Positions 41,636 through 49,444 of a stretch of 51,025 bases of DNA are shown piece after piece. Position 1 is the stretch's first letter; each line of letters begins with the position of its first letter. The translations under genes and the position numbers were made by a program. The notes beneath the pieces were generated by a model, which was given only the letters and a program-made list of their open reading frames with translations, did no database searches and was not told the DNA's origin. The DNA is taken from contig JAKSUR010000004.1 of the NCBI GenBank assembly GCA_024408765.1, positions 1-51,025 on the forward strand, written 5' to 3'. This DNA is from a bacterium. Lineage in GTDB: Bacteria > Cyanobacteriota > Vampirovibrionia > Gastranaerophilales > Gastranaerophilaceae.

Positions 41636-43288
41636 TTATTCTTCTATTGGTTCTAAGTTATTTGGCAGGTTATCATTGCTCTCTGTTTTTTCAGGTTTTT
41701 TAGCAGATTCTGCAATATCAGAAATTCTGAATTCATAAAAATCTGCATTTAATGATGTTAAAATTGAATCTGTATCAGGAGTATCACCTTCAATTTCTGA
41801 AAATTCTTTATTACCGATAGATTTTCCTGCCAATCCGAGCTTTTGAAGTTTGATTTCAGAACTCGGATTATAATCTTTAATATTTCTGTAGAAACTGTAT
41901 ACACTTTCCAAATTATCGGCCTGTCCTGTTATTGTAATATGCTGACCTATATCTAATGACGTTAGCCAAAGCTTTTTAGGTATTTCCGTTCCAACTATTG
42001 TATAATATGAATATATATGCTTATTTTCAATTAAACCACTTTTTATTTCATCAGGTTCTGAAAATTTATTTGATGATATATCTTTATTTTCTTCTAAAAA
42101 TTTGTCAATTGCAGCGATATCTTCGTTAATTTTTTGCAATTTTGCATCTTGATTGACCATAGCTTTGTTAATAATAAAAAGCATAGAAAAAGCTGCAACG
42201 AAAAGGACTATTGCAATCGCAATGCCATATTTAAGCATATTCTCAATTGACAATTCAATACCTTTAAAGACAGGAGGGACTTGACTTGTATAGATATCAC
42301 CCAATAATTTGTTAAACATATTGAACTGTGCTACCGAATTGTCACCATAATCCTTTCTGATAGCTGCACCTACAACATCAAGAGATACCAGCTTTCCAGC
42401 TTCCGGAGCAATGCTCGGAGCAAGCTCTAACAAAGGTTCAGACGCATACATATTTGCTTCCATGTGAACGATTTGAGATTTATATTGAAGTTTATCAGCA
42501 AGAATTTTTGCACTGATTAAATCTGTTTTAGATAGAACATACAACATTGATGACGGAGTATTTTTTAATATAGAACGCACTGCGTTAACAACAACATCAT
42601 AATTTTCAGCATCTTCCAGCACTTTGCCAATATTAATTTTTTCTTCGATACAATCGACATAAATGCGTCCTTGCATCGTAACTATTCGGCAACAATTGTT
42701 TTCAACAACAAGCATTACCCATACAGTATCTCTGTCAACTTCGACTCTGTTACTATAAATCAATGCATTTAAACACGCATTTAAGGATGTATCAATCGCA
42801 ACCAACTTATATTTTAAGTCTTGTATTTGAATCGCAATTTCCGTAACCAAACTTTTATTTAAAGCAGTATACACAATTTTATTAAATTGTATTGTAGAAT
42901 TTGGCATTGTTTTCCAATCATAAATAGGTTCATCCATCTCGTTCTGAAACAATGGGTTTTCAGCGATTTCATCTTCAATATTGTTAATAATTTGTGCCGT
43001 ATCCATTGAAGCAGGCCAATCTTTAACATTAAATATAGCGGTTGGTAATGTTAAAATGATTTCACTTCCTTGCGGTGCTCCGATTTCAAGTAGTGCATCA
43101 TGCAAAACCTCTTTAAAAATATCCAAGTCAAAACTTGTATTCTGCATTTTTGTATCAAATTCAAACGGTTTTGATAAATAATTTAGCAAAATGCCTTTCT
43201 CATAATCTATCTGCGCAACTTCAATACCAATATCAGGAGTTACGGAAACACCATAAATATTCTTCTTATTAATAAGATTTAAACTCAT
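41636..43288 (-). CDS. PilM-PilN fusion (GspL-like architecture)
   Basis: A 550-residue protein. Residues 1-335 look like the actin-fold PilM domain (IYGVSVTPDIGIEVAQIDYE, EIILTLPTAIFNV, YKLVAIDTSLNACLNALIYS, GKLVSLDVVGAAIR). One membrane helix follows at about 354-375 (YGIAIAIVLFVAAFSMLFII), then a coiled coil and a periplasmic PilN domain (YYTIVGTEIPKKLWLTSLDI and ITITGQADNLESVYSFYRNI), and an acidic tail. PilM and PilN are normally separate genes; joining them gives the layout of GspL of type II secretion. With PilO next door it forms the inner-membrane alignment complex. No pilin, ATPase or secretin gene is in the window. Confidence 0.82.
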   Translation of the reverse strand: MSLNLINKKNIYGVSVTPDIGIEVAQIDYEKGILLNYLSKPFEFDTKMQNTSFDLDIFKEVLHDALLEIGAPQGSEIILTLPTAIFNVKDWPASMDTAQIINNIEDEIAENPLFQNEMDEPIYDWKTMPNSTIQFNKIVYTALNKSLVTEIAIQIQDLKYKLVAIDTSLNACLNALIYSNRVEVDRDTVWVMLVVENNCCRIVTMQGRIYVDCIEEKINIGKVLEDAENYDVVVNAVRSILKNTPSSMLYVLSKTDLISAKILADKLQYKSQIVHMEANMYASEPLLELAPSIAPEAGKLVSLDVVGAAIRKDYGDNSVAQFNMFNKLLGDIYTSQVPPVFKGIELSIENMLKYGIAIAIVLFVAAFSMLFIINKAMVNQDAKLQKINEDIAAIDKFLEENKDISSNKFSEPDEIKSGLIENKHIYSYYTIVGTEIPKKLWLTSLDIGQHITITGQADNLESVYSFYRNIKDYNPSSEIKLQKLGLAGKSIGNKEFSEIEGDTPDTDSILTSLNADFYEFRISDIAESAKKPEKTESNDNLPNNLEPIEE

Positions 43289-46933: not shown

Positions 46934-47752
46934 TTAAATGTATGTGTCAATCGAACTCCCAAAATGTGTTCGGACAAATGTTTTATTATAATAATAAAAG
47001 ACACCGACTGAAATACAACATATAAAATAAAAATTAATTAATGTTGCTACAAAATTCATTATAACATTACTCGCAAAAATTGTTGAGAATATTGAAATTA
47101 AGAAATTCATACCAAATATCAAAAGATATATTCCCATTGTATTGAAAAAATTTTTACTAAAAATATTTTTTATTGATATAAACAATGCCTTAAATGGATT
47201 TTTACATGTAAAAAACAAAGCCGGTAAAAATAAGAACAGTAAAAACGATGAAATCATCATAACTCCGAGTATAAGCATATTCCAAGCATTAATTTTTATA
47301 AGCTGTGAAGTGGTAAGTCCTGAAAGAAAAGCTTTTAATGTTTCTTGATTAGACAACGCTTTTGAAAAATCGTTCATATTTATACCGATTTCTCCGATAT
47401 AATACATTCCTGTTTTATAGGCTAAAAATAAAAACATGCCGGTTACAATGCCTGCGATAATAATAAGCCCTAATACCGGCAGAAAATATCCGCCAACCCC
47501 GAATGAAAAATTTTTGATAATAGAATTAGGATTATCAGGTGATTCGTCCAATGCCGCTAATTTTACCATTTGTCCCCAGCCCGCAACAAATGTAACGCTC
47601 ATTAAAAAGAGAATTACAACAGCAACAGCCATTCCTATAACATTTTTTCCGTTTACAGATATCGTTGCATACACGCCTGACAATAGCGAAAACAAAATTA
47701 ATGGTGTTGCAACAACTATATACCTGTTTGTAAGCTCAAATATTTTCTTCAT
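46934..47752 (-). CDS. multi-pass membrane protein, function unknown
   Basis: A 272-residue protein with about six membrane helices: IVVATPLILFSLLSGVYATI, IGMAVAVVILFLMSVTFVAG, FLPVLGLIIIAGIVTGMFLF, MLILGVMMISSFLLFLFLPA, MGIYLLIFGMNFLISIFSTI and LINFYFICCISVGVFYYYNK. No catalytic motif is seen. It resembles the 345-residue protein at 15182 in its cytoplasmic loop after the fourth helix (TCKNPFKALFISIKNIFSKN), a pattern of the YciC/DUF4013-like groups. It converges on the TPR gene and follows the Hcp-like gene with 29 nt between. Confidence 0.72.
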   Translation of the reverse strand: MKKIFELTNRYIVVATPLILFSLLSGVYATISVNGKNVIGMAVAVVILFLMSVTFVAGWGQMVKLAALDESPDNPNSIIKNFSFGVGGYFLPVLGLIIIAGIVTGMFLFLAYKTGMYYIGEIGINMNDFSKALSNQETLKAFLSGLTTSQLIKINAWNMLILGVMMISSFLLFLFLPALFFTCKNPFKALFISIKNIFSKNFFNTMGIYLLIFGMNFLISIFSTIFASNVIMNFVATLINFYFICCISVGVFYYYNKTFVRTHFGSSIDTYI

Positions 47753-47781: not shown

Positions 47782-49356
47782 TTACAAATTATTTATACTT
47801 TCAGCATCTTTTTGAGGAGTGCTTATTAAATTTATTTTGAATTCTTGACTCAATGTATTTATTAAAGACGGATTAATTGTGATTGGTTCACAAATTCCCA
47901 AATAAACATTTACAATATCAAATGCATTAAAATATAAAAGTTCAGCGACAGTATTCCTGTTACATTTAGGTAAAAAAGCATTCATAGATATTTTATACTT
48001 CAAAAGTTTTTCAGAAACTCTTACTATCGCATAATAATCAAAACATGTATTAAAATATAAAAAGTTTTCCTGATTTACATTATATGAAAATGAAATAATT
48101 AAAACATCTTTATCAAGTCTTTTAACGAGATTTTCAAAATAATTGTTTATGTTATCCGCATAATCTTTTAATCCGAATATTACCATTTTCTTATACTTAC
48201 CCGAAGAAAGTTTTTCGTCAATCAAATTCAGACACTCTTCTAAGTTATAACCTATATTGATAGTTTCACAAACTCTGCCATTTTTAAATCCTTTTGCCAA
48301 CTCCGCAGCTTCTATAACGGGTTGAAAATTGTCATTTTCAATTTTGACTACACCTTTATAAAAATTTAAATCTGTTGTAAAAAGCCTTCCACGATAAAGA
48401 TTTTCGATATTATGTAAAGAATGCTTTGTTAAAATTATAGGGCCCGGGAAAGTAGAAAAATCAAGCAAACAATTTTCCAATCCATATCCATACTGACCTT
48501 TAAGATGTGAATATTTATGAAAATACGGATAAGTATGAGCTACCATCATTTCATCATGAGTATAGATATCTATATCTGTTTCCTTTAAGTTTTCTAAAAT
48601 ATTTTCCAGTTCTCTTATATTAGAACCAACTACCAAAACTGCTTTTGAAGGAGTAGTTGAATACGAAACTTCACAAAAGCCTTGCTTGCCATAACGAGCT
48701 TCCCGTGCATTATATAATTTTATCATTAAATCAGTATTGCATCTCGCACCCTCTTGTATAATATCCTTTATTGTATTTTTTTCAGTGCAATTAACCCTTA
48801 CTGAATCAAGCAAATTCAAAAGAGTTTCAAACCCTTCTGAATCTTCAATTCCAAAACTTTTTAATTCAAGTAAATTAATACTTATACTTTTTGCGACAAT
48901 CAGCATTATATTATACAAATCATATATTTCAGAAGGCATAACTGTTATAATTTCTCTGAATATACGTTCGCCAAGCTTAATAGCATCTATAATATCTTTG
49001 CAATTTTTAAAAATATCTGAATCAAAAAGATTTTCGCCCTTGAAATCATCTTGATTATAGATTTCATTATATTTATCTATAACGAGCACCATGTTTTCTT
49101 GAAGTTTTGCAATTACTGTCATAAAAGCATATTCAGTAAATGCTGAATTTGCAACTGCAATAGCCGTTGCATTTAAGATAAAATCTTTTATTTTAGTATC
49201 CAATTCATTTTTTTCAAAAAGTTTAATACAATACTTTGAAAATAAATGTAAATAAAGTATAAGAACATTTTGCAAAGCAGTTGTTCTGGGATTAACGGAG
49301 CAAATGCCTTTTGACACACAACTATTGTACTGTGGATTATCAGAATTATTTTTCAT
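47782..49356 (-). CDS. Hcp (hybrid-cluster protein) homologue lacking metal ligands
   Basis: About 524 residues with the fold signposts of hybrid-cluster (prismane) protein: SCVSKGICSVNPRTTALQNV at the start, KAVLVVGSNIRELENILENL, IDIYTHDEMMVAHTYPYFHK and KGQYGYGLENCLLDFSTFPG then PIILT, and the PITINPSLINTLSQEFKINL end. From memory of the family, Hcp needs a first CxxC pair, a Cys after PILLT, and Cys in the MAGCDG, AGCAKYR and QCNDSYS motifs plus the WYEQK Glu/Lys. Here these are replaced (TKHSL, IFGLKDY, SFSYN, FDYYAIV and LPKCNRN). It probably does not hold the hybrid cluster. No ribosome site; GTG 49362 is the alternative start. Confidence 0.78.
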   Translation of the reverse strand: MKNNSDNPQYNSCVSKGICSVNPRTTALQNVLILYLHLFSKYCIKLFEKNELDTKIKDFILNATAIAVANSAFTEYAFMTVIAKLQENMVLVIDKYNEIYNQDDFKGENLFDSDIFKNCKDIIDAIKLGERIFREIITVMPSEIYDLYNIMLIVAKSISINLLELKSFGIEDSEGFETLLNLLDSVRVNCTEKNTIKDIIQEGARCNTDLMIKLYNAREARYGKQGFCEVSYSTTPSKAVLVVGSNIRELENILENLKETDIDIYTHDEMMVAHTYPYFHKYSHLKGQYGYGLENCLLDFSTFPGPIILTKHSLHNIENLYRGRLFTTDLNFYKGVVKIENDNFQPVIEAAELAKGFKNGRVCETINIGYNLEECLNLIDEKLSSGKYKKMVIFGLKDYADNINNYFENLVKRLDKDVLIISFSYNVNQENFLYFNTCFDYYAIVRVSEKLLKYKISMNAFLPKCNRNTVAELLYFNAFDIVNVYLGICEPITINPSLINTLSQEFKINLISTPQKDAESINNL

Positions 49357-49444
49357 AAACACATGATAAATATAGTTATAATGATTTTAATTCCCCGACA
49401 AGGTTAGTTTATGCTATAATTTTACTTAACATCGGAGGTATAAA

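Follow-up and report, generated by a model that had tools for sequence, protein, structure and literature searches.

Introduction

Hcp is a nitric-oxide-detoxifying hybrid-cluster protein, the physiological role of which was a matter of dispute for decades. In Hcp from D. vulgaris (Dv), after which ligand positions are numbered here and on the sequence of which the numbering was verified, we take it as established from the structure that the cubane cluster is bound by C3, C6, C15 and C21 and the hybrid cluster by H244, E268, C312, C406 (the persulfide), C434, C459 and E494. Genes of class I and III Hcp are usually isolated and have no conserved operon partner (PMC10210160). In Ni-CODH, the structural groups A-4, A-6 and clade C have incomplete active-site motifs, and some of them carry novel Cys motifs (PMC6344411). 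Our literature search, with most subscription journals outside its reach, found no paper on an Hcp relative devoid of its ligands in the way described below.

The window, i.e. the whole stretch of 51,025 nucleotides analysed here, encodes an Hcp-like protein of 524 amino acids on the minus strand at 47782..49356. The original prediction described it as an Hcp homologue that had lost its cluster ligands. Like class-I Hcp (prismane; D. vulgaris 1e1d, M. thermolithotrophicus 8cnr), the protein has the three-domain fold over its whole length (Z 30), the C-x5-C of the cubane motif and many core motifs. Unlike class-I Hcp, it lacks the cubane CxxC and five of the seven hybrid-cluster ligands, all seven being gone in most of its relatives; it has new conserved cysteines at Dv 493 and 517 (and, in the window's genus, at 295 and 370) and scores below the equivalog cut-off. 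With the Ni-CODH groups mentioned above (PMC6344411) it shares the superfamily and the partial replacement of cluster ligands. However, it is a homologue of Hcp (Z 30 against Hcp versus 16 against CODH), and its ligand loss is far fuller and hits both clusters. Its gene is isolated, as are the genes of class I and III Hcp (PMC10210160).

Results

The reading frame runs unbroken over 524 codons from the ATG at 49354-49356 to the stop codon at 47782-47784, in agreement with the original prediction; a GTG at 49362, six bases upstream of the ATG, is a possible alternative start. Homology to Hcp was found by profile, sequence and structure searches. Residues 14-520 match Pfam Prismane (PF03063) with 2.3e-34 and 119.4 bits and pass the gathering cut-off of 27, while TIGR01703, the hydroxylamine reductase equivalog, is matched over residues 1-523 with 221.8 bits and thus below its cut-off of 360.8. 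In a search of PDB sequences the alignment covered residues 10-546 of D. vulgaris Hcp. This search returned Hcp chains and no CODH, the sole other listed match being weak and unrelated (E 0.14). An AlphaFold2 model calculated from an alignment of 48 homologues reached a mean pLDDT of 86 and a pTM of 0.89, with low pLDDT for residues 1-20. Hcp structures were the top matches of this model in Foldseek (E 2.5e-27, TM 0.79), and in VIA-align the model reached Z 30 against Hcp (rmsd 3.8, 490 residues aligned) and Z 16 against CODH. The window protein is a full-length Hcp homologue with the three-domain Hcp fold, and the end-to-end homology claimed originally is confirmed by the extent of the Prismane, TIGR01703 and D. 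vulgaris Hcp alignments. Membership in another family, either CODH or an unrelated one, is ruled out by the Prismane match, the Hcp-only homologues in the PDB, the Foldseek result and the Z-scores of 30 versus 16. A second Prismane protein was not detected in the genome to which the window belongs (1.58 Mb assembly, 94.6% complete), so that no canonical Hcp was found there. For RpoB of a family member, the best PDB matches were three RNA polymerase beta chains of cyanobacterial origin (8syi, 8gzg, 8h3v); taken together with the small genomes and the presence of type IV pilin genes, this makes Gastranaerophilales the likely assignment.

In the cubane motif CxxC-x(7-8)-C-x5-C two of the four cysteines are left. 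The first CxxC is lost, as predicted, with C3 and C6 both absent, and the second part is retained as C13-x5-C19 (49300..49320, minus strand like all codons given below), which corresponds to C15 and C21 and is present in 38/38 sequences of the genus. Among the hybrid-cluster ligands, C312 is replaced by S313 (48418..48420), a serine that is invariant within the genus, the persulfide C406 by K397 (48166..48168) and C434 by Y425 (48082..48084), while E494-Q-K496 of D. vulgaris Hcp aligns with N466-R-N468 (47953..47961). The original prediction had recognized these three exchanged cysteines as well as the loss of Glu (now N466) and Lys (now N468) from the WYEQK motif; it had overlooked the replacement of H244 by S245 (48622..48624). 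Two of the seven hybrid-cluster ligands are present. E268 is found as E269 (48550..48552), the Glu of the YTHDEM motif, which had not been named as a ligand before, and C459 is found as C438 (48043..48045). The Cys of QCNDSYS had been listed among the losses; this was incorrect, because NTCFDYY aligns with GQCNDSY and includes the cysteine. The statement that only C-x5-C is retained is therefore right for the cubane site and wrong for the hybrid site. With this set of residues the window protein does not have the means to build either the hybrid cluster or a standard cubane.

Of 33 further genomes searched in the genus, 32 have an orthologue, with about 36-59% identity, and at the level of the order 141 of 146 genomes have an Hcp-type match. 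Of these 146 genomes, 56 contain a canonical Hcp that scores above the curated cut-off; the form conserved across the order is not canonical Hcp. Nearly every genome of the window's family (25 genera sampled) encodes the ligand-less form, TIGR01703 scores of family members are about 130-240 bits versus the cut-off of 360.8, and full-length matches below the cut-off were confined to this family in a phylum-wide sample. Ligands were counted in 120 sequences from 25 genera of the family. Of the cubane ligands, C3 and C6 occur in none of them, C15 in 113 and C21 in 111. At the hybrid site, H244 is present in one sequence, E268 in 30 (many relatives have Asp or Asn instead), C434 in 11, C459, which is unconserved in the family, in 32 and E494 in 7, and neither C312 nor C406 was found in any of the 120. 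No hybrid-cluster ligand whatever is left in 70/120. Losses that recur in this way across 25 genera and 120 homologues are far beyond chance, and the check for the same losses in related genomes showed that close relatives are without the ligands, too. With a modified cluster, the protein could still reduce nitric oxide or hydroxylamine, given that the fold and its domains are kept and that E268 and C459 are present in the window protein. However, the complete absence of the persulfide C406 and of C312 from the family, the rarity of H244, C434 and E494 and the large number of sequences lacking every hybrid-cluster ligand make such an activity very unlikely.

Frames are intact in almost all of the more than 120 independent genomes. 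Pairwise dN/dS (NG86) was about 0.05-0.15 in pairs with estimable dS; since dS approaches saturation in most other pairs, the closest pair (95% identity) provides the firmest estimate, with 0.056 by NG86 and 0.031 by YN00. The Hcp-like gene is under purifying rather than relaxed selection and is not decaying. Loss of cofactor residues across orthologues and purifying selection, two marks of a conserved pseudoenzyme, are both found here, and the earlier view of a conserved protein instead of simple decay is supported by the intact frames, the low dN/dS and the shared losses. Ligand loss alone would be compatible with the early decay of a pseudogene, or an assembly artefact might be suspected, but frames that stay open across relatives and dN/dS values far below 1 led us to reject decay, the probability of which is negligible. 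Canonical Hcp, by contrast, is missing in many of these genomes and apparently fragmentary in a few. Genomes G103 and G084 contain an intact degenerate Hcp-like gene beside fragmentary extra Hcp matches; these short fragments, at G103:C19:7640-8064 and G084:C6:4815-4988, are possibly decaying canonical copies.

In a tree of 62 rows (LG+C20+F+G4 by PMSF) all degenerate proteins of the families f1, f6 and f7 form one clade (bootstrap/SH-aLRT 100/99) within class-I Hcp, a placement to be read with the long branches in mind, which make a tree-building artefact possible despite the choice of the more robust model. The clade adjoins the canonical long Hcps of f2, f3, f4 and f8, and the short canonical Hcps of f1, f6 and f7 fall apart from it. 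Such short canonical Hcps (L035 in G016, L078, L079) belong to the same Pfam family and are co-resident with the degenerate form in some genomes; they differ from it in having all cubane and hybrid ligands, in their separate branch and in their occurrence in only a part of the family. Neither of the two findings that had been named beforehand as speaking against the original prediction was obtained: alignment and phylogeny against the Hcp classes gave a clade nested in class-I Hcp and not another family, and the ligands are missing from close relatives.

Within the degenerate clade, the protein L044 from the neighbouring family f7 (803-2437) represents an intermediate. It has C3, C6, C15, C21, E268, C312 and C406 and is without H244, C434, C459 and E494, that is, without four of the seven hybrid-cluster ligands, and with 374 bits it scores above the TIGR01703 cut-off of 360.8. 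L038 and L040 have C15, C21, E268 and C312. Because of the residue pattern of L044, the cubane ligands appear to have outlived the hybrid-cluster ligands; read on the tree, the latter were probably lost before the cubane CxxC. A further degenerate type of Hcp was seen in family f6 (L047:2954-4600, L050:2072-3709), with C406 and C434 and without C15 and C21, a residue set that differs from that of the window's family.

The window protein contains 13 cysteines, six of which (13, 19, 296, 363, 465, 489) are conserved at the family or genus level; six others (43, 119, 190, 206, 228, 375), which serve as an internal control, occur in 1-14 of 120 relatives. C465 (47962..47964) is a gained cysteine at Dv Y493, directly beside the lost ligand E494, and is present in 114/120 family sequences; C489 (47890..47892), gained at Dv 517, is present in 109/120. 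Both are absent from all 18 canonical Hcps, in which Y493 and T/S517 occupy these sites, and in a genus-weighted ranking of conservation they come 14th and 16th of all positions. C296 (48469..48471), gained at Dv Q295, was found in 38/38 sequences of the genus and in 73/120 of the family, and the genus-specific C363 (48268..48270; Dv 370) in 37/38 and 37/120, respectively, again with 0/18 canonical proteins for each. Within the window's genus (g1), C13, C19, C296 and C363 show no or almost no variation, and most members of the genera g20, g21 and g27 have both C292 and C296. A cluster of the four cysteines C13/C19/C296/C363 was considered as a family-wide model and dropped once the other genera were read, C363 being genus-specific. 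The loss of ligands is accompanied by the fixation of other cysteines, which is new compared with the original claim of ligand loss: that claim is correct for most ligands and tells half the story, as some of the best-conserved positions are other cysteines.

The full quartet C13/C19/C465/C489 is present in 100/120 family sequences. Among the incomplete ones, seven have C465/C489 only, six have C13/C19 only, five lack C489 alone and two lack C19 alone, so C13/C19 and C465/C489 tend to disappear as pairs. On the tree, C465 and C489 changed in the same way in about three out of four independent comparisons and never in opposite ways, the comparisons being too few for significance. C13/C19 are gone in the genera g36 and g41, and C489 is lost and C465 partly lost in one subclade of g1, in each case with an intact protein; thus, no single set of cysteines is indispensable. 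The sole g38 sequence has C13/C19 and neither C465 nor C489. In the AlphaFold2 model C465 and C489 each come after a beta strand in domain 3 (457-462 and 482-486, respectively), probably on that side of the domain which bears the hybrid-cluster ligands in Hcp.

The main rival of the explanation that we favour is a metal-free pseudoenzyme that uses the Hcp fold as a scaffold or for binding a partner, the conserved cysteines being structural or accidental. Nearly all ligands are lost, the cysteines differ by lineage, as in g36 and the g1 subclade, and many of the top-conserved positions are Gly, Pro and aromatic residues of the fold core, all of which would fit a mere scaffold. However, C465 and C489 were gained rather than inherited and are conserved above almost all other positions, and C13-x5-C19 is conserved where C3 and C6 are not, and we regard a metal-free protein as somewhat unlikely. 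The favoured explanation, in which the cysteines themselves form a metal or thiol site, also has a more specific form, namely an electron carrier whose [4Fe-4S] cluster would occupy the former cubane position and be held by C13, C19 and two of C296, C363, C465 and C489. C3 and C6 are never present in the family while C15 and C21 stay, C296/C363 in g1 and C292/C296 in g20, g21 and g27 provide at least four conserved cysteines in most lineages, and the cubane ligands outlive those of the hybrid cluster in L044. Yet the cysteine pairs are lost separately and not as a foursome, and the g38 sequence has no partner for C13/C19 at either 465 or 489, which makes this specific form decidedly unlikely.

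Discussion

We propose that the window protein is a selected paralogue of class-I Hcp which lost the hybrid cluster, was kept for another task and functions by means of a metal or thiol site formed by its cysteines. We assign this explanation a probability of roughly 0.5. The paralogue would have originated once, in an ancestor shared by three related families of the order, and it would have lost first the hybrid cluster and later the standard cubane while under selection for another task. The cysteines in question would be C13-x5-C19, where the cubane cluster was formerly bound, and C465/C489 in domain-3 loops near the old E494, with C296/C363 as an addition in the window's genus. They might form a metal site, with a simpler iron-sulfur cluster or another metal, or dithiol pairs, and this new site could lie partly inside the emptied active-site pocket. 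Its role might be cytoplasmic redox sensing or the handling of metal or electrons, instead of the reduction of nitric oxide or hydroxylamine. Since the best-conserved positions include C465 and C489, joined in the genus by C296 and C363, the structural or sensory function suggested originally is only one option, and its likelihood is at most equal to that of a rebuilt metal or thiol site.

Under selection, this lineage has retained the scaffold and dispensed with both clusters, and a living intermediate is present. The sequence of steps by which a complex metal site is taken apart can therefore be read and put to the test. The findings suggest the remodelling of an ancient metalloenzyme for a different function in one family of small-genome bacteria. 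Tentatively, we speculate that its clusters were dismantled stepwise and replaced by a Cys-bound metal or thiol site with a new function throughout the family. The protein descends from class-I Hcp but fails the ligand tests, and therefore it should not be named Hcp or hydroxylamine reductase by function. L044 serves as a warning for annotation, since its score lies above the equivalog cut-off despite four missing hybrid-cluster ligands. The family-wide protein could be misread as a defence against nitrosative stress in bacteria to which this gene provides no such protection.

The gene neighbourhood was also examined. A gene for a 272-amino-acid membrane protein lies downstream on the same strand at a distance of 29 bp (46934..47752, minus strand); its product matches nothing in NCBIfam, nor any Pfam model above the cut-off. 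Among 19 other genomes tested, 18 have a homologue (17/17 of the same family and 1/2 of other families), and its linkage to the Hcp-like gene is limited to the genus, the gene being located elsewhere in the genome in other genera. In about a dozen species a CpaE-like gene (receiver and ParA/MinD ATPase) intervenes between the two (L004:284-1468, L006:3074-4258, L011:3150-4304, L032:7659-8816). It is absent at the window's locus, and elsewhere in the window's genome there are remote matches only. Within the genus the Hcp-like gene adjoins a divergent HD-domain gene. No conserved operon partner was found outside the genus, so gene order does not suggest a task, and a functional partner inferred from gene order was rejected because the linkage to the membrane-protein and CpaE-like genes is restricted to the genus. 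Elsewhere in the window, at 41636-43288, a chain of 550 amino acids resembles, by eye, a PilM-type ATPase domain joined through a transmembrane segment to a PilN-like part, and it is possibly a PilM-PilN fusion.
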